A stretch of 36,522 bases of DNA. Source: Robiginitomaculum sp. GTDB lineage: Bacteria > Pseudomonadota > Alphaproteobacteria > Caulobacterales > Maricaulaceae. The stretch's first letter is position 1. Each line of letters starts with the position of its first letter. The notes beneath the pieces were generated by a model. The model saw nothing but the letters and a program-made list of their open reading frames with translations, was not told where the DNA came from and did no database searches. Shown here piece after piece: positions 4,974 to 34,936 of this stretch. Both the position numbers and the translations under genes were made by a program. The stretch covers positions 1 to 36,522 of the forward strand of contig WFTT01000005.1 of the NCBI GenBank assembly GCA_015485335.1, read 5' to 3'.

Positions 4974-7223
4974 ATGTCTGAAACTCACCAGGAACGGGAA
5001 AATTCTGAAAGCGGCACCTATGGTGCAGTGACCGGGGTCAAGCTGTCCGAAGAGCGCCAGGCCGAACGTGAGATTGTGGTCCATGCCGACGAGGCAGATA
5101 CGCCCAAGACAGACCCGGGGCTTCCGGATGGTGATGCCAAATCTCCCCATGTCTGGTTTTTACTGGCCGGGGCGGTGGTTTCCTTTTTCTGGGTATCGGC
5201 GGTGTTGGCCTTCACCTTGGGTCAAACCGGGCTTTCCGGTCTGATGGCATTGCCGGTGACGGGGGTGGCCAGCCTGTTGTTCGTTTCGGTTGGCCCGGCC
5301 ATTTTTGTCATGCTGGCGGCGGTGCTGATTGCCGAACTGGTCCGTTTTCGCAGTACTGCCCGTTATATCGGGGCGATGGCGGCACGCTTTGCCGATCCGG
5401 CCAAGGCCACGCGCGAGGATGCGCGCCTGATGGCCGATGCGGTGCGCGGCGAAATTACCCGGGTGAATGGCGCGGTAGAAGGCGCTCTGGCCCGCCTTGG
5501 CGCCATGGAAGAAGTGCTGGGTCATCACAGCGAGGCTTTTGCCAAGGCCGAAGAAAGTGCGCGTGAACGCACCGATGCCCTGATCAATGATTTGCGCCGC
5601 GAACGCGAAGCGCTTGCCGATCTGGCCATTGTGCTGGATCAAAAGGCTGCCGATATTGCTGAGGCCATAACCGAACAGTCCAAAATGGTGGTAGCCGCCG
5701 CCGACATTGCCAACGCCCACGCCATCGACAGCACCAAAACCCTGGAAGAAAGCGCCGAGCGCCTGTCTGGCTCTGCCCATGATGCAGCGCAAGGGGCCAA
5801 GGTGATTGCCGCCAAGCTGGATGATGCCACCGAACGTCTATCCTCGACCACTATCGAGCTTGGCGATGCCAGCAAAGCCCTTTCCTCCAGCACGCAGGAA
5901 CTGGATCAGGTGCGCGAACGCGCCCGGGACAGCTTTGCCGCCAGCCGTGATGATGCGCGGGTGCTGACCGACCTGACCCGCCAAAGTGTTGAAAAAATGC
6001 AGGATGTGGCGCGCCAGGGGGCCGAGATTGTTAGCGAGGCCTTTGATACGGCCCTGACCACGTCTCAGGAACGGGTGCAGGAAGTTCAGCGCGAAACCCG
6101 CCTTGCCGCCGAACGCAATGCCCGCCAGGCCGAAGAACTTAAAAACGCGGCCGAAGAGGCAAAATCTGCGCTGGATGCCTATGCCGAAGTGATTGCCAAA
6201 CGGCTGGAACAGGCCAATGAGGCCAGCTTTTCGGCGGCCAGTTGGGCCGATAAAACGTTTGAGCGACTGGAGGCGGCCACCAAAACGCTGGAAAGCAAGC
6301 TGGCAGCCTTGCCCGAAACCGCCGATGCCCAGGCCCGCGACCTACAGGAAAAGCTGCGCAAGGGTCTGGAAGGTCTGAACGAGGCGGCCCGGGCGGCCGC
6401 CGATGAAGCCGAAGAAATTGATGCCGGGTTTCAGGCCCGCATTCGCCAGAATTACGAATTGCTGAGTGACTTTATGTTGCGCATGGGGGCCGCCGCCGGA
6501 CCGCGTGGCGGCGCTTTGGATGTGCCCAGCCCATTTAAAATGCCAGGGCAGGATGAGCCGTTCAAAGCCCAATCCAGCACCCCCGCTGAACAGAGCAAAA
6601 CCAGTGAGAGCGTAAAAGCTGCCGCCCCATCACCAACCCCCGCCGCGCCAAAGCCTGCCAAAACCAAAAAGAAGAGCTTTATTGAGGCGCAGATTGAGGC
6701 CCAGAACAAGGCACGCGCCGCCACCAGGGACGAGCCGGCGGTCAAGACCGAAGAACCGTCCCAGAAAAATCAGGGCTGGAGCTGGAAAGACGTTTTGTCA
6801 GGCATGGACCGGGCCAAGGACAAAGCCGATGGCGTGGCCGCCTCTTCCCCAGCATCACGCCAGGGGACCGATACGCTGGACCGTCTGGTCACGCTGTTTC
6901 GCATTCATGACATTGACCCGCAGGATCTGTTCAGCACCCAAACCTATCGCAGTCTGGCTCATGCACGGCTGGTCGGGGGCAAGCGAGCTATGGTGGATAT
7001 TGTCCGCCTGGAGGCCGAGGCCCAGATTGAGGCCTTGGGCGCAGCCTTTTCTGATGATGCAGCCCTGTTGGAAATTGCCGAGGAATTTGCCAGCGAGCTG
7101 CGCCAGAAAATCAATCAATCGGCGCAAAAAGGCAACAAGTTGCATCTGGAAACCCACTTGCGCACTGGCGATGGCCCGGCCTATCTATTGATTGAAACGG
7201 CGCTGGAACACATTGCTGCCTAG
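4974..7223 (+). CDS. Large two-TM coiled-coil protein, TipN-like architecture
   Basis: This 749-residue protein has no enzyme motif that I recognise. About 58 polar residues are followed by two membrane segments (roughly residues 60-82 and 90-122). A long alanine-, glutamate- and arginine-rich region with heptad-like periodicity, predicted coiled coil, runs from about 140 to 500. A proline-, alanine- and lysine-rich linker follows (about 530-620), then a compact C-terminal domain from about 635 (DTLDRLVTLFRIHDIDPQDLF onward). Two N-terminal membrane helices plus a long cytoplasmic coiled coil is the layout of the Caulobacter birth-scar/polarity protein TipN, which is somewhat longer. That link rests on architecture, not on recognised sequence identity. 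The ribosome binding site GGGGGAAG precedes ATG 4974, and a CtrA-type box lies just upstream, fitting a cell-cycle role. Alternatives are a chemoreceptor-like scaffold or an envelope-spanning structural protein. Confidence 0.6.
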   Translation: MSETHQERENSESGTYGAVTGVKLSEERQAEREIVVHADEADTPKTDPGLPDGDAKSPHVWFLLAGAVVSFFWVSAVLAFTLGQTGLSGLMALPVTGVASLLFVSVGPAIFVMLAAVLIAELVRFRSTARYIGAMAARFADPAKATREDARLMADAVRGEITRVNGAVEGALARLGAMEEVLGHHSEAFAKAEESARERTDALINDLRREREALADLAIVLDQKAADIAEAITEQSKMVVAAADIANAHAIDSTKTLEESAERLSGSAHDAAQGAKVIAAKLDDATERLSSTTIELGDASKALSSSTQELDQVRERARDSFAASRDDARVLTDLTRQSVEKMQDVARQGAEIVSEAFDTALTTSQERVQEVQRETRLAAERNARQAEELKNAAEEAKSALDAYAEVIAKRLEQANEASFSAASWADKTFERLEAATKTLESKLAALPETADAQARDLQEKLRKGLEGLNEAARAAADEAEEIDAGFQARIRQNYELLSDFMLRMGAAAGPRGGALDVPSPFKMPGQDEPFKAQSSTPAEQSKTSESVKAAAPSPTPAAPKPAKTKKKSFIEAQIEAQNKARAATRDEPAVKTEEPSQKNQGWSWKDVLSGMDRAKDKADGVAASSPASRQGTDTLDRLVTLFRIHDIDPQDLFSTQTYRSLAHARLVGGKRAMVDIVRLEAEAQIEALGAAFSDDAALLEIAEEFASELRQKINQSAQKGNKLHLETHLRTGDGPAYLLIETALEHIAA

Positions 7224-22705: not shown

Positions 22706-23425
22706 TCAGGAAGTGGGCGCACCGCACAGCATCATATGGATGGCAATGCGGACGCTGCCGCCGGTGAAATTTGCTGTATTGGCGGTCAGGCGAATGGGGG
22801 TGTTTGCATAAAAGGCGGTGGGGCCGGTCACGCCGCTATTGGTGCTGCCCGCGGTAATGCTCAGCGTGCCGCCATATTTGGCCAGATCACCAACAATGCC
22901 GCAATCATAGCTGCTGGCCCCGGTAATGGCGGTGGTGGTGTGGGTGGTGACCGCAAACACAATGGCCCGATCCGGGATCACAATGGTGCTGTCGGTAAAG
23001 GCCCCGACCAGCGGGATATCTTCTTCGATAATGTCAAAGCGGGTCTGGGCCCCGTTTGGCGTTGCATTGGCAATCAGGCTCATCCCCCGGGGCGGGATTT
23101 GCCAAGTGGTGCCGTCAAAATACAGCATTTGCACCTGATCGATGACCCAGGCCTGCCAGCCCGCTTTGGGGATATAATAGGCCCAGGCCCCGTCCTGCCA
23201 GGCGGTGATCTGGGCATCCTTGCCTGCCCATACGCCGGTGGCATTGGCGGCAATAATATAGCGCTCGCCCTCAAGGGGGGCAGTGGGCGGCTCGGTAAGG
23301 CTCTGGCTGGTAATGACCAGCTGGACCAGCGCATCCAGTGCGCGAATGGCCTCGTTATGGGTGACGTGTTTTTGCGCCTGTGCCTCTAGAATATAAGGCA
23401 ATACCAGATTGGGGGTTTCGTTCAT
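22706..23425 (-). CDS. DUF2793 domain phage/GTA fibre protein
   Basis: This 239-residue protein begins NETPNLVLPYILEAQAQKHVTHNEAIRALDALVQL and continues with EGERYIIAANATGVWAGKDAQITAWQDGAWAYY, the hallmark of DUF2793 proteins. These occur in alphaproteobacterial prophages and in GTA spike/fibre loci. The C-terminal 110 residues are beta-rich and glycine/threonine-rich, as in fibre heads. It is the first gene of a three-gene block with the spike-base and repeat-propeller genes. AAGG lies directly before the ATG, unusually close. No capsid, portal or terminase genes are in the window, so the particle genes must be elsewhere. Confidence 0.78.
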   Translation of the reverse strand: MNETPNLVLPYILEAQAQKHVTHNEAIRALDALVQLVITSQSLTEPPTAPLEGERYIIAANATGVWAGKDAQITAWQDGAWAYYIPKAGWQAWVIDQVQMLYFDGTTWQIPPRGMSLIANATPNGAQTRFDIIEEDIPLVGAFTDSTIVIPDRAIVFAVTTHTTTAITGASSYDCGIVGDLAKYGGTLSITAGSTNSGVTGPTAFYANTPIRLTANTANFTGGSVRIAIHMMLCGAPTS

Positions 23426-25766: not shown

Positions 25767-25991
25767 AACGGAACTCCAACAGGACAGAGATTGTGAATTT
25801 GCGCGCAAAGTGTCAAACCCAGAAGGTTCGTGCAAGGAAAAGCTGCATCAGGGGGAAGCCTTTACCCGAACTTCGCCGTACTGGCGCAAGGACTTTGCGT
25901 TTGTCCCGCTATAGGTTATGGGTACGCTAAGCGGGTATGAACGTGTATATAAGCCCGCATAAAGATATAACTGCCGGGGTGGTTGTTCAAA

Positions 25992-27131
25992 ATGGTGCCG
26001 ATTTATGCCTTGCCAGACCATGAGGTCGTAGGGCGGCTTTTGCCGGGCCGTTTTGATATTCCTGTTCCTGATGACGAGGCCGTCGCGCGTATTCGCACCC
26101 ATGCAGGGCTGATTCCTGCGGCGATCGAGCCTGCCAGCGCTCCCGGACAAATCAGCAAGATATACTGGGTGGATATTGGCACCCATGCCTATCGTGACTG
26201 GCAGCATTTGTTCACCATCGAACGTCTGGCCCAGGCAGACATGATTTCCACGGCCTTTGCCACGACCATGAATGTGCTGGATGTGGATGACCTGATAGTG
26301 GATGCCCTGATGCCATCAGGTTTTATTTTCCATACCTCGCGTTGCGGCTCTACCTTGCTGGGCAAGGCACTGGCCAGAATTCCTGCCCACTGTGTGGTCA
26401 ATCAGGGCGGCCCCTTACAGCGCGGCTTTTGGGCCGCCATGACCCAGGACTGGCAAAACGAGCTGCCCGATGATGCACTCACGGTGAAGAAATTTCGCAA
26501 TCTGGTGTTTGCGCTGACCCGGCCGCGCCTGGGTACGGAAACCACCAGTTTTGTAAAATTCATCAGCTGGAACACGCTTTATCTGGACTTTATTGCGCGG
26601 GCCTTTCCCGAAGTGCACAGCCTGTTTCTTTTCCGGGATCCGGTGGAAGTGATTGCCTCGGTGATCAAGGAAACCACCGCGGTGCTGGTGGCCAAGGACT
26701 GGCCCCAGGCCAGTTTTTTGACCGGCAAAAGCGCCGCGCAGGTGCAGAAGATGGATGATGTCAGCTATCTGGCGCACTGTTATAATAATTATTTCAAAGT
26801 GATACTGGATTCTTCATTAGCTAATGTGAAGGCTTTAGACTATCATAACCTAAGACCCGATACATTGGGGCAGGTTTTAAAGTCAGGGTTTTCCTTTGTG
26901 CCGGATGAACAGGTGATCGCTGAAATGTGTACACAGTTTCGCTTCCATTCAAAGGATGATTCTGATACGAGCACCTTCCAAAGTGATGGCAGCGCTAAGC
27001 AGGCTGCTGTTTCTGAGAAGGATAGAATACAAATAGAGCGCATTACAAAGGCGCTGCTTGGGCGATTGCGAGCGGCTCCAAAAACCCTTTTCGGGGGTAA
27101 TGAACTGAGTTCCCGAGGGGCCGTAAGTTGA
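25992..27131 (+). CDS. Sulfotransferase family protein
   Basis: This 379-residue protein carries the 5'-phosphosulfate binding loop FIFHTSRCGSTLLGKALAR (about residues 111-129) and the 3'-phosphate block SLFLFRDPVEVIASV (about 210), the two signatures of PAPS-dependent sulfotransferases. The N-terminal 100 residues are a less familiar extension. ATG 25992 was chosen over TTG 25983, with GGGGTGG upstream. Acceptor is unknown; the glycosyltransferase 16 nt downstream suggests a surface glycan or lipid. The last third (after about 26,800) is clearly more AT-rich than the first two thirds and uses different codons, which suggests a mosaic or relaxed gene end. Confidence 0.75.
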   Translation: MVPIYALPDHEVVGRLLPGRFDIPVPDDEAVARIRTHAGLIPAAIEPASAPGQISKIYWVDIGTHAYRDWQHLFTIERLAQADMISTAFATTMNVLDVDDLIVDALMPSGFIFHTSRCGSTLLGKALARIPAHCVVNQGGPLQRGFWAAMTQDWQNELPDDALTVKKFRNLVFALTRPRLGTETTSFVKFISWNTLYLDFIARAFPEVHSLFLFRDPVEVIASVIKETTAVLVAKDWPQASFLTGKSAAQVQKMDDVSYLAHCYNNYFKVILDSSLANVKALDYHNLRPDTLGQVLKSGFSFVPDEQVIAEMCTQFRFHSKDDSDTSTFQSDGSAKQAAVSEKDRIQIERITKALLGRLRAAPKTLFGGNELSSRGAVS

Positions 27132-31046: not shown

Positions 31047-31430
31047 TTAGTCGTCCAGACTGTCCAGATATTCAATAACCGCCTTGCGGTCGGCCTCATT
31101 TTTCAAACCCGGAAAGATCATTTTGGTCTTGGCGACCAGTGCGCGGGGCTGAATCAGATAGGTATCCAGGGTTTTGGCATCCCAGACGGCCCCGCCGGCA
31201 CCAAAGGCCTTCATGGCTTCGCTGTATTTATATCCGGGTACGGTACCCGGCGTGCGGCCAACTACCCCATACAGGCTGGGGCCGACTTTCTTTTTGCCTT
31301 CGACATTCGAATGGCAAACCCGGCATTTCTTAAACACCGCTTCACCAGCCGAGGTATCGGCCATGGCGGCCCCGGCATTGATGGTCAGTGCCAAGGCGCT
31401 GCCGATGAGCAAAAGAGATGATGTACGCAT
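31047..31430 (-). CDS. Small periplasmic cytochrome c (c2-like)
   Basis: This 127-residue protein has a signal peptide (LLLIGSALALTINAGAAMA, cleavage near residue 24) and one haem site CRVCH (Cys36, Cys39, His40) near the mature N terminus. The distal methionine is in AKTKMIFPGLKN. The spacing VGPSLYGVVGRTPGTVPGYKYSEAMK matches class I cytochrome c/c2 carriers. It probably shuttles electrons in the periplasm between the bc1 complex and an oxidase. ATG 31430 (AAGGATAA upstream) is preferred to the in-frame start at 31481. The gene upstream on the same strand also encodes a c-type cytochrome, 178 nt away. Confidence 0.92.
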   Translation of the reverse strand: MRTSSLLLIGSALALTINAGAAMADTSAGEAVFKKCRVCHSNVEGKKKVGPSLYGVVGRTPGTVPGYKYSEAMKAFGAGGAVWDAKTLDTYLIQPRALVAKTKMIFPGLKNEADRKAVIEYLDSLDD

Positions 31431-31552
31431 GATATTATCCTTGTTTTGGCGAGGCAGGCTCGCAAATTTGCAATCTCTCATGGTGCGGGATGAACCTGTA
31501 TGTTTCAGGTCTGCCCTAACACCATATCCCCCATGCCCTGTTCAAACCATTA

Positions 31553-31608: not shown

Positions 31609-32292
31609 CTATTTCGCAGCATATTCTTTTTGCAGCACCTCGACATAGGCTGTCAGGGCGGCCAGTTCTTCGGAATCCCAAGGCAGCGGCTTGGCCTCCA
31701 TGGGTTGCTGCATGCAAACCTGTACCATGGATTCGGCGGTCAGCTTTTTCTGGCCATAAATGTCTTTGCCCATGGCCACATAGTGGGGGTAGGGCTGTTT
31801 GAAGGTGTCGTTATAGCCAGCCATATCGGTATGACAGCTATTGCAGTTCAACCCATTGGTGGAAAGCGATGAGTCGCCATAAAGCTCTTTGCCGCGAGCG
31901 ACCAGCTGACGGCGATCCCCTTTATACTTTTTGGAAAACATGGGGCGTTTGATGTCTTTGGGATTGCCTTCGGCTTCGCCCTCGGCCTCTCCTTTGGCTT
32001 CCCCTTCTGCCTCACCCTTGGCTTCTCCTTCGGCTTCGCCCTTGGCCTCGCCTTCTGCCTCGCCTTTGGCTTCACCCTTGGCCTTGTGCATTTTAGCTTC
32101 GGCCTCACCTTCGCCGCGGGCTTCTTTTTTGGCTTCGCCTTGGGCCTCTCCGGCGGCCTGTTCAAAGGCCGCGGTCTCCGCGTTTGCTGTCTGGCTGATA
32201 CCAAGGCCCGCCACCATTAACGGCGTCGAGTACAAAAGTCCCTTGGCCAGATTTTTCAGTAATTTTTGGCGTTTTTCCTGACGGTCTTGCAT
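31609..32292 (-). CDS. Cytochrome c with Gly-Glu-Ala-Lys/Glu repeat domain
   Basis: This 227-residue protein starts with a charged N terminus and a signal peptide (LLYSTPLMVAGLGISQTANA). Residues about 47-109 are a low-complexity tract built on four-residue units GEAE and GEAK. The C-terminal 110 residues form a monohaem cytochrome c domain with CNSCH (Cys150-His154) and a candidate ligand region VCMQQPMEAKPL (about 192-202). The domain recalls SoxX-like or other single-haem cytochromes, but I cannot assign a partner. The repeats form a Glu/Lys-rich linker and are encoded by 12- and 24-bp DNA units that can change copy number in frame. ATG 32292 with AAGGGGA upstream is preferred to the open frame start at 32487. 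It is divergent from the TTL fusion gene. Confidence 0.85.
   Translation of the reverse strand: MQDRQEKRQKLLKNLAKGLLYSTPLMVAGLGISQTANAETAAFEQAAGEAQGEAKKEARGEGEAEAKMHKAKGEAKGEAEGEAKGEAEGEAKGEAEGEAKGEAEGEAEGNPKDIKRPMFSKKYKGDRRQLVARGKELYGDSSLSTNGLNCNSCHTDMAGYNDTFKQPYPHYVAMGKDIYGQKKLTAESMVQVCMQQPMEAKPLPWDSEELAALTAYVEVLQKEYAAK
31960..32090. repeat. In-frame 12/24-bp tandem repeats within the cytochrome gene
   Basis: This stretch is built from near-identical 12-base units of the type TTCGCCCTTGGC and TTCTGCCTCGCC (plus strand), pairing into 24-base units that encode GEAEGEAK. The copies differ mainly at third codon positions. Copy number can vary by replication slippage without breaking the frame. 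Confidence 0.8.
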
Positions 32293-32539
32293 GGTTTTCC
32301 CCTTAGCATGATGGTTGCCCGCGGCAGCATATGGAAACGCAGTGACAGGCGGGGCACCCTTGGCACCCGACCATGACAGGCTATGGGCAGGGGGGAGGCG
32401 AAGCAAAACACTTGTAATCTCGCAGAAGTAACAATTTCGAGAGGTCTGGCCCTGTTCCGGGGGAACGCGGCGGTGTGTGCTTGACATCCCTTTGCTTAAC
32501 CATGCTCATTCGGGCATGGGTAATGGACAAGGGATCAGG

Positions 32540-34936
32540 ATGGGCCGCACAAGAAAACCATATCGTCGATACTGGCTGGCCGGCAATCGGGAACCGGGCC
32601 AGGACGTCTTTTTTGTCGAGGCGCTGGATACCTCCATCTGGAAACCAGGCTCGGCAAAAAACTGGGATACCTGCTGGTATACCGGCATGCCCGATCCCCA
32701 TGTGTTTGAACAATTGGATGCCACCAAGACCATCAATCATATTCCCGGTAATAATGGTCTGACCATCAAGGATTATCTCTATGAGACGCTAAGGGCGGCG
32801 CGCGACCGTCAGGCCTCGCCCAAAAATCTGGCGCGCATGGACTATTTCCCCCGGGTGTATGCCATGCCCGACGATTTTCATGAACTGCAACACTGTGCCG
32901 CGCAAAACCCGGACAAGAGCTGGATTTTAAAACCCAAGAACTCGTCCCGCGGGCGCGGAATCGAAGTGGTGCAGGACATCGCCAATATTCCGCTGGAAAA
33001 CACCTGGATGGTGCAGGAATATATCGACAACCCCCATGTGATGAATGACCGTAAATACGTGCTGCGTCTGTATGTGCTGATCAGTTCGGTCGAGCCATTG
33101 CGGTTTTATCTGCATGATGAAGGTTTCGCCAAACTGGCCTCCGAGCCATATAATATAGAGGATCCGGATAATCCTTTTGCCCATCTGACCAATCCAGACA
33201 TTAACGCCACCAATACTGATGCCGATGCGCCGGTGGTGTTTGTTGGCCTGGGGGCATACCGTCAATGGCTGCGTGATACCGGCTATGATGATGAGGCCTT
33301 ATTTGCCAAAATCCGCGATCTGGTCACGCTGACGGTAATTGCCGTACGCGAGCGTATGCGCCAGCGTATCAATGTGCAAAAGGCCCCGGCCAATGGCTGT
33401 TACGAGCTGTTGGGGGTGGACTGTCTGGTGGATGCAGACCTCAAACCCTGGATACTGGAATGTAATCTCAGCCCGTCATTGGAGGTTTGTGCCGGGCCCG
33501 AAGATGGCGGCGATACCGAAACCATTATCAAGCGGACCATGGTGGCCGATATGGTGTCCTTACTGGGGCTGAATGCGCCAATTGCCGATTATACCGGTCT
33601 GGATCGCGCCGAACGCATGGCCCGCCAGATCAAAGACGAGATGGCCCGTGCCGGCGGCTTCCGGTGCCTGTTTCCCGCCAAAGACACGGTCGAGGATTAT
33701 TTGACATTTTTTCCGGTGCCGCGTTATGCCGATATGGTCAGCGCCCGGGCCGTTCTTGGCCGTGAATTGCGCCCGGTGCGCCTGTGTTCGAACCAGACTG
33801 TCGAGATCGTTTCCGAAGACGAACTGGCGCTGTATTTTGAGAAAAACGGCACCCTCTATACCCCCAATCCAGTATCGGGATGGATCTGGCTACAAGTGGC
33901 CGATGGTGCCGACCCCCAAGGCATTACCCAGGATCTGATTGCGGCGCACGAGGCGGCCCACGGCACACCCAGCGAGGACGAGCAATGGATGATCTTTGAG
34001 AATGTCTGGGATGCCCTGTCCAGCTGGGCGCAACTGGGCCTGTTGCGCCGTGATACCGGCGATCAGGCTCAATCAGAAGATACGCCCGAAACGATCCCAG
34101 ACGCACCGCCCGTTGATCCGCTGATGATAGGCAAGCGCCTGCTCAGCCTGGATTATGGTTGCGCCGCGGTGGCAACCCGGCTTGGACCGCTCTTTGCGCC
34201 TTTGAAAACCAAAAAACAGGCCGGGGTGAATATCACCGTACAAAATGCGCCGGTGGGCTATGCACTGGCGGTAGGCTCACACCTGATCACCACGGGGCTG
34301 GGGCTGGATACTGTGGCGCAGGTGGTTTCTCGCGCACTTTTTGAACAGGCCCCCCTGAAGGAAACCGATATTGCCATTGCCGGCACCCTGATACCGATCA
34401 ACGATAGCGAGGCGGTGTTTTTTACGGCTGGCCGGATGAGCGGGTGGGAGGACGCCCTGCCGTTGGCATTCGCTGCCCTGGCCAAGGCCGGTTATGGCGG
34501 CGGCGTCGTGCTGGACATGAAAAAACCAAAATCGGCCTTGCCCCTAGGCCTGCCGGTACGGCTGAATGACGATGATATAGACGCCATTGCCACGCATTTG
34601 GATCCCCTGGCACCATCAGCCTTTCAGAACTGGTCAACGGGGGGGCAGGGGTGTTTGCTGGCCGCAGATATGCAGGGTAAGCCAAAGCCGTATACCTTAC
34701 GGGGCATCGTTATGATGGAAAGGGGGCCGGACAGAAAGGTAAAACTGCAAAGCGCCAGCCTGCACCGGGCGCTGGATGGAGCACTGGTTTCGGCGATCGG
34801 CGTGCAAGGGGCGCATTTAACTGGCGCACAGGTCAGCGCACTGAATGACTGGCTGGAAGGGATTTCTCTCTACACATTGGCTTTTTCTGATCCCATAGAG
34901 GGGGCACAAAAACTCACCGAAGAATTGGGCGTTTAG
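32540..34936 (+). CDS. TTL-family ligase fused to PqqD-like and degenerate HprK-like domains
   Basis: This 798-residue protein appears to combine three domains. Residues about 50-330 form a tubulin-tyrosine-ligase-like ATP-grasp domain: [18 protein letters not shown] (Lys131), [38 protein letters not shown] and the metal-binding [27 protein letters not shown] (Glu and Asn in LECN). The ligase residues look intact. Residues about 405-505 resemble a PqqD-like peptide-binding domain ([29 protein letters not shown]). Residues about 525-798 resemble HprK-related kinases, but the P-loop position reads [10 protein letters not shown], so the GKS/T is lost. The start ATG 32540 has AAGGGAT upstream; the open frame reaches 32477. 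The gene is divergent from a Glu/Lys-repeat cytochrome and ends in a 4-nt overlap with the convergent SulP gene. Bacterial TTL-like proteins can ligate amino acids to peptides; the substrate here is unknown. Confidence 0.72.

Follow-up and report, generated by a model that had tools for sequence, protein, structure and literature searches.

Which substrate is served by a bacterial protein in which a tubulin tyrosine ligase (TTL)-type enzyme is joined to a peptide-binding domain and to a relative of HPr kinase is the question raised by the open reading frame (ORF) at 32540..34936 (+) of a 36,522-nucleotide stretch of DNA from the marine bacterium Robiginitomaculum sp. (GenBank assembly GCA_015485335.1, contig WFTT01000005.1, positions 1 to 36,522), hereafter called the window. 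Analysis of the ORF, its relatives and their neighbours pointed to an adjacent partner gene, overlooked in an earlier sequence-only reading of the locus, and it is this gene that carries most of the interpretation. The pair is probably a leader-guided protein-tail ligase and its substrate: the recognition element for ribosomally synthesized and post-translationally modified peptides (RiPPs), or RRE, of the enzyme would dock onto the leader of the partner protein, and the TTL-like (TTLL-like) domain would add amino acids, probably glutamate, to Glu side chains in the partner's tail before export.

The ligase ORF runs uninterrupted from the ATG at 32540 to the stop at 34936 and its predicted product has 798 residues. 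A longer alternative frame starting with GTG begins at 32477; the ATG was preferred because homologues support it, among them the ligase of family locus L004, which is 84% identical to that of the window and has no further start codon upstream in its frame. An AlphaFold2 model computed from 60 sequences was confident nearly end to end (predicted local distance difference test, pLDDT, 90.3; predicted template modelling score, pTM, 0.85) and was used instead of an earlier, poor model from 11 sequences (pLDDT 70.5). ORF call, homologues and model confirmed the predicted product as a fusion protein in which an ATP-grasp ligase of TTL type is followed by a PqqD/RRE domain and then by an HprK-like domain that lacks a P-loop. 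The sequence-only reading had proposed a TTL-like ligase in the N-terminal part, a PqqD-like middle region and an HprK-like C-terminal region lacking GSGKST, and all three assignments were borne out by the profile results given below. A one-genome-per-species scan yielded 91 relatives; the best 80 were retained and, with the window, make up 81 family loci. The domain order was conserved in other Alphaproteobacteria, which that reading had named as support, and in Gammaproteobacteria too.

Searches with PF03133 placed the TTL/TTLL ATP-grasp ligase core at residues 62-315 (32723..33484, +) with an E-value of 4.7e-57 and 193.9 bits against a curated cut-off of 20.1 bits, and the same core was indicated by the PDB profile, the family alignment and Foldseek. 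TTLL6 was the top match of the window protein in a phmmer search of PDB (3.6e-39). A profile of 11 homologues ranked TTLL6 (1.4e-53), TTLL7 (8e-44) and TTLL11 (3e-29) first, with 5vlq_A ('LOC100158544 protein', 1e-16) and TTL (about 2e-15) lower; 5vlq_A is presumably the glycylase TTLL3, a name that its PDB entry does not carry. Judged by this ranking, the TTL part of the window protein is nearest to the tubulin polyglutamylases TTLL6 and TTLL7. Foldseek comparison of the model with PDB gave TTLL6 with an E-value of 3e-29 and a TM-score of 0.81 on the target over about 420 columns, and the best 50 of 735 rows were TTL-type matches only. Residues K131, K172, R176, K198, D294, E307 and N309 were invariant in 76/76 aligned family members, and K131, R176, D294, E307 and N309, presumably the ATP/Mg-binding and ligase residues, aligned with TTLL6. 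The PDB profile alignment and the 76-member alignment placed R137 (32948..32950, +) opposite TTLL6 Q180, a position occupied in the family by R (36/76) or K (40/76) and never by Q (0/76). Passages in the literature state that Q180 of TTLL6 decides for elongation (PMC12366701) and that an Arg at this position favours gamma-linked addition to an acceptor Glu (PMC7970040). For a microtubule-binding domain like that of TTLL6/7, a second aligned stretch of the ligase, residues 356-391, scored only 0.9 bits, which is non-significant.

The PqqD-like RRE domain was located at residues 415-504 (33782..34051, +) using PF05402 in the family, a PDB profile and DSSP analysis of the model. PF05402 gave a weak, sub-threshold match to the middle domain cut out of the window protein (19.5 against a cut-off of 23.4 bits) and matched 22/24 middle domains of the family at E-values up to 0.01, the best being 2.3e-10. 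The RRE-domain profile retrieved just two proteins from PDB at E-values up to 1, TbiB1 (2.1e-5) and TfuB1 (2.6e-4), and by this comparison the predicted middle domain is nearest to lasso-peptide B1 RREs. DSSP assigned four short strands in 415-440 and helices at 444-454, 459-474 and 479-499; the fold rule found in a passage of PMC12710340 has three strands, one fewer than here, followed by three helices.

No Pfam or NCBIfam model matched the C-terminal stretch (34052-34933), and the assignment of residues 527-796 (34118..34927, +) to the HprK fold rests on profile comparison with hhalign. Residues 505-798, as a 60-row alignment, matched 16 HprK-related kinases with a probability of 97.5% (E-value 6.5e-12, 243 columns) and five close members of TIGR04352 with 93.5% (2.3e-7), and the N-terminal part used as control gave 0.2% and 0.1% with the same two sets. 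Alignment, model and hhalign agreed in placing the lost Walker A at residues 629-638 (34424..34453, +), between the strand 624-630 and the helix 639-648. GK[ST] was present at this position in 0/76 aligned members; the two GKT strings in the family, in L053 and L059, are located in the linker near residue 521. This domain is the least conserved part of the ligase, with R547, G573, Y574, L589, L600, G655, P672 and W771 near-invariant. An active kinase was ruled out by the P-loop missing in 76/76, and the predicted C-terminal domain is a degenerate HprK homologue, not an active member.

The partner gene (31609..32292, -), whose start was set by leader homology, is divergent from the ligase gene, 247 bp separating the two start codons. 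Its predicted product, the proposed substrate, has 227 residues and consists of a leader, a Glu tail and a c-type cytochrome. The leader/signal-like region (MQDRQEKRQKLLKNLAKGLLYSTPLMVAGLG..., 32161..32292, -) was recognized by leader profile A3, for which it was the sole match in the window's own genome at E-values up to 0.01 (6.8e-17). It contains YSTPLM (32215..32232, -), of the form YxxPx[L/M]; passages in PMC10368454 and PMC12710340 state, respectively, that lasso B1 RREs need leader Tyr, Pro and Leu spaced YxxPxL and that W/Y/LxxP/L/I is bound by many RREs including PqqD. The family leader consensus is roughly KRxxLLxxLSRxLxYTAPxL, and among distinct leaders P was found in 82/82, Y in 62/82 and L or M at P+2 in 75/82. 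Composition and spacing analysis defined the Glu tail of the window partner as 62 residues with 20 Glu (31966..32151, -), encoded by mixed codons, and therefore the repeat is not simply a DNA repeat. A SoxA/TsdA-type cytochrome c domain with CNSCH follows (31636..31893, -; PF21342, 6.6e-9, 36.1 against 27 bits).

Comparison of the repeat cores in the family indicated that Glu makes up 43% of residues and that the next Glu stands at +2 in 86% of cases and at +1 or +3 in 1%, the spacers being Ala, Gly and some Lys (K 5%, S 1% of repeat-core residues). This strict spacing points to Glu as the acceptor, not to general acidity, and chance or halophile acidity as the origin of the tail was set aside on the spacing together with the density of such tails near the ligase. 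The tails of, for example, L078, L084 and L091 consist almost only of E, G and A, the window's tail has Lys between Glu residues, and those of L089 and L110 are Glu-Ala rich and not alternating. A CxxCH site follows the tail in 24/75 leader-bearing repeat ORFs; the tail is internal in these cytochrome-bearing partners, and modification would therefore fall on side chains and not on the C-terminus. Some other partners end right after the tail, and AEG or GEG forms the C-terminus of 24 of the 51 that lack a cytochrome site. By an LAAC, LAGC or VAGC box the partners of L055, L056, L057, L105, L109, L089 and L110 are lipoprotein-like. Taken together, the partners apparently are exported, carrying a Sec-type or lipoprotein-type leader. 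An Arenicella partner (L087:10614-10925, -) with a diverged leader (LPVM, no Tyr) and Ser/Lys spacers in its Glu tail was missed by both the repeat and the leader scans.

The partner was found by clustering the neighbours of the 80 loci and the window, and the repeat scan was designed after the repeats were noticed. Glu-repeat ORFs occurred in 73/81 family loci and in 71/81 were no more than 1 kb away from the ligase; 78 of them fell in the 157 kb of DNA up to this distance and 11 in the 992 kb beyond. The leader profile detected a partner in 75/80 loci, which with the window and L087 (by eye) amounts to 77/81. In the remaining four no partner was present nearby: the contigs of L046 and L066 end close by, and the other two are L060 and L063. 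L073, related to the latter two, carries two repeat ORFs, one truncated at the contig end. Four arrangements were distinguished among 71 pairs, namely upstream divergent (18), upstream same strand (2), downstream same strand (42) and downstream convergent (9). On the ligase tree, with 55/60 rows labelled (L087, L089 and L110 by hand), at least five changes of arrangement were required, a rough figure given the hand-set labels and a quickly built tree that leaves forks open; adjacency was kept throughout, and the pair therefore stays together through rearrangement. Two loci show a defective or short ligase beside a partner gene: in Halomonas jincaotanensis (L065:8001-10346) the ligase frame is broken by an early stop, and in L091 it is short (584 residues).

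Ligase and leader also occurred together across genomes. In the window's genus both were found in the same 10/18 genomes, the leader at 1e-14 or better, with two weak leader matches (0.008-0.009) uncounted. In the family of genome G596 a strong TTL (1.1e-54 or better) and the leader were present in the same 18/121 genomes, five genomes with weak partial TTL matches being uncounted. The family of G822 gave 19/121 for the ligase profile and 19/121 for the leader, 18 of them shared. Pooling of the three groups (260 genomes), in which the ligase was sought with three different queries, resulted in 46 genomes with both, 212 with neither and 2 discordant.

Near-full or full-length relatives of the ligase were present in 10/98 other genomes near the window's own (99 searched including its own). 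The best 80 relatives came from Robiginitomaculum (nearest to the window on the tree), Marinicaulis, other Parvularculaceae, Pararhodobacter, Halomonas and kin, Marinobacter, Aquisalimonas, other Ectothiorhodospiraceae and Arenicella. A class sample (385 genomes) contained two strong TTL proteins besides that of the window (1e-50 or better), and a phylum sample (398 genomes) two at the same threshold and one intermediate, in genome G765 (L115), where an 875-residue frame matched TTL at 8.5e-13 and is perhaps another kind of bacterial TTL. Other bacteria also gave weak matches to PF03133, most of which, by their listed extents, span only a short part of the model; these were taken as other ATP-grasp proteins and not counted. 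A phage or mobile origin was set aside, as no close relative was found in the viral_contigs scan and no PHROGs match at 0.001 (plasmid and phage records were not searched).

From the observed architecture, partner, adjacency, co-occurrence and motif content we infer the chemistry and the acceptor sites as follows. Judging from the motif and the domain match, the PqqD/RRE domain would bind the leader at YxxPx[L/M]; because this docking motif overlaps the signal-like stretch of the partner, leader binding could keep the substrate from leaving before its modification. The TTLL-type domain would, by homology with TTLL enzymes acting on tubulin tails, ligate amino acids, most likely glutamate, onto side-chain carboxyls of the spaced tail Glu, a branch-forming (initiating) step being likelier than pure chain elongation. 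The HprK-like domain probably no longer phosphorylates and may have kept its fold as a peptide-binding scaffold from an ancestral RRE-kinase unit. Since ATP and amino acids are found in the cytoplasm and heme attachment takes place outside it, the ligase would have to act before export. The partner anatomy suggests that export of the modified protein would follow, the tail being then a free polyanionic peptide, part of a lipoprotein or an extension of a periplasmic cytochrome c, and possible roles of the finished tail are metal or cation binding, cytochrome tethering and surface charge. The Glu-rich repetitive tail beside the ligase resembles tubulin tails and the Glu-Gly repeats of RPGR-ORF15, which according to a passage of PMC13052805 resemble tubulin tails and are glutamylated by TTLL5, a case of the TTLL fold acting on repeats of this kind in a protein other than tubulin. 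The sequence-only reading had proposed that a single protein serves as modification machine, possibly for a ribosomal peptide or the tail of a protein, and the linked partner, which combines an RRE-type leader with a Glu-rich tail, strengthens that proposal.

Several points weigh against the leader-guided ligase. The amino-acid donor of its putative catalysis is not readable from sequence. The R or K at the Q180 position may be a weak hint of the branch-forming step, and a hint only, because TTLL7, listed as initiating and elongating in a passage of PMC7970040, carries M there. L310 (33467..33469, +), which the PDB profile alignment places opposite TTLL6 H362, is L in 76/76 members, and no support was drawn from it as the source passage is vague on the effect of an aliphatic residue. 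The P in 82/82 leaders is partly built in, the leaders having first been picked by a pattern requiring L and P, and 38 leaders of this very set went into the profile that detected partners in 75/80 loci. The Pararhodobacter loci L060 and L063 have full flanks and no Glu-tail partner nearby. The two discordant genomes are G958, with a 204-residue ligase piece and no leader, and G1054, with a leader match and no ligase; of those counted as having both, G931 shows a shortened ligase frame (488 residues) and G974 one interrupted by a stop. Genomes within a genus or family are moreover related, so that the pooled set does not represent 260 independent trials.

Among other explanations, it is unlikely, yet deserves most weight, that the machine is the same and its chemistry another, the TTL domain adding Gly, Tyr or a further amino acid or extending the C-terminus. 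Ligases for tyrosine and for glycine are among the enzymes with a TTL fold, TTLL11 is able to add to main-chain ends according to a passage of PMC12366701, and the AEG or GEG ends of cytochrome-free partners fit C-terminal extension; the PDB ranking, however, is headed by polyglutamylases, ahead of 5vlq_A and TTL, the partner tail is Glu-specific, and its internal position in cytochrome-bearing partners speaks against extension of the C-terminus. It seems improbable that the Glu-tail neighbour is not the substrate at all and is linked otherwise, for example by a shared stress response, with the ligase acting elsewhere. The two Pararhodobacter loci without a nearby partner and the one genome with a leader match alone would suit this explanation, but the leader motif fits the RRE type and the tail the TTLL type, adjacency survives at least five rearrangements, and 46 genomes with both genes stand against 2 discordant ones.

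That the HprK-like domain is a second catalyst or a nucleotide sensor with an altered active site, comparable to SidJ, a kinase-fold protein able to glutamylate (passage in PMC9117372), is very improbable. A few near-invariant residues do persist in this domain, yet it is the least conserved one and has no Walker A Lys-Ser/Thr in any member, catalysis by BsfK depends on H148, G163, K169, S170, D186 and D187 (passage in PMC10368454), and a complete ligase site is already supplied by the TTL domain. Least probable of all appears graspetide-type chemistry, in which the ATP-grasp domain would cross-link tail Glu to Lys, Ser or Thr of the same protein. Graspetides carry lactams and lactones formed by ATP-grasp ligases on precursor peptides (passage in PMC8939145), and the Lys residues between Glu in the window's tail would fit such cross-links; acceptor Lys, Ser or Thr are nevertheless not found throughout the core, several tails (L078, L084, L091) offering hardly any, and both Pfam and the fold identify the ligase domain as TTL, no graspetide ligase having entered a direct comparison.

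The leader-guided ligase shares features with several known systems and differs from each. It resembles the eukaryotic TTLL glutamylases TTLL6 and TTLL7 in its TTL-type ATP-grasp domain, catalytic residues and domain fold; unlike them, it is bacterial, has no convincing microtubule-binding domain, would dock through a PqqD/RRE domain and has a proposed substrate that looks exported. With the lasso-peptide systems (TbiB1, TfuB1, BsfK) it has in common a B1-type RRE, a YxxPxL-like leader and the combination of an RRE with a distant HPr-kinase relative, and BsfB1 speeds phosphorylation by BsfK (passage in PMC10368454), whereas the HprK part of the window protein lacks Walker A, a TTL ligase is fused in front and the substrates are long and exported-looking. 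HprK-related kinase A (TIGR04352) is collinear over nearly the whole C-terminal domain, from which GKS is missing, and the TIGR04352 model matches neither the window protein nor its genome. The graspetide and DUF2063/DUF2282 RRE pathways share leader-guided ATP-grasp chemistry and a precedent for Sec-type signals on RRE substrates, the pairing of an RRE with Sec-signal precursors in DUF2063/DUF2282 (passage in PMC12710340), but here the ligase is TTL-type, the tail is another and the signal-like stretch itself contains the putative recognition motif. Of the features of RiPPs, the partner shows a leader and genetic linkage, while core modification and leader removal would be putative; 24/75 leader-bearing repeat ORFs continue to a CxxCH site.

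Every module is thus already known, and the combination is undescribed in the literature searched, where among the matches listed no bacterial TTL-PqqD/RRE fusion, no bacterial TTLL with a Glu-tail substrate and no RRE docking for a TTL enzyme was found. A 2009 amidoligase survey by Iyer and colleagues may mention bacterial TTL proteins. Neither PMC8939145 nor PMC12710340 has the words tubulin or TTL in its main text; a passage of PMC9117372 discusses SidJ as the bacterial glutamylase, and the expression 'bacterial TTL' occurs in PMC2824747, on the genome of Legionella longbeachae. The proposal joins RRE-guided bacterial peptide modification with eukaryotic TTLL glutamylation of disordered acidic tails, two subjects unconnected in the literature searched, and bears on the origin of TTLL polyglutamylases. 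If true, it would mean a post-translational modification new to bacterial envelope proteins, and a simple TTLL system of two genes; with the enzyme, its docking motif and its substrate all named, it is testable with two genes in E. coli. In its widest form, advanced here tentatively, the system may be a bacterial equivalent of the tubulin-tail code, in which an RRE-guided TTLL would write glutamates on the strictly alternating (xE)n tails that exported peptides, lipoproteins and cytochromes carry, a signal-embedded docking motif blocking export until release by the ligase; it would then be an undescribed class of leader-guided modification and possibly a counterpart or ancestor of the TTLL polyglutamylases.

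Other features were noted in the window and near the ligase loci. Two ORFs of the window, 4974-7223 (+, 749 residues) and 25983-27131 (+, 382 residues), had no Pfam match at 1e-8, and 22706-23425 (-) encodes a DUF2793 protein (4e-33), a family that often accompanies phage or gene-transfer-agent genes. Just past the partner gene, 31047-31481 (-) encodes a c-type cytochrome, matched by the Cyt550 model with 2.5e-25 and below its cut-off. A Halomonas locus (L070:12115-16156) contains a second, cytochrome-bearing Glu-tail gene near sigma-factor-like and glycosyltransferase-like genes, named by eye. Neighbour clusters named from one member each included a DinB-family gene in 35/81 ligase loci and a DUF302 gene in 19/81, mostly downstream and on the same strand (e.g. 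L107:10805-11898).

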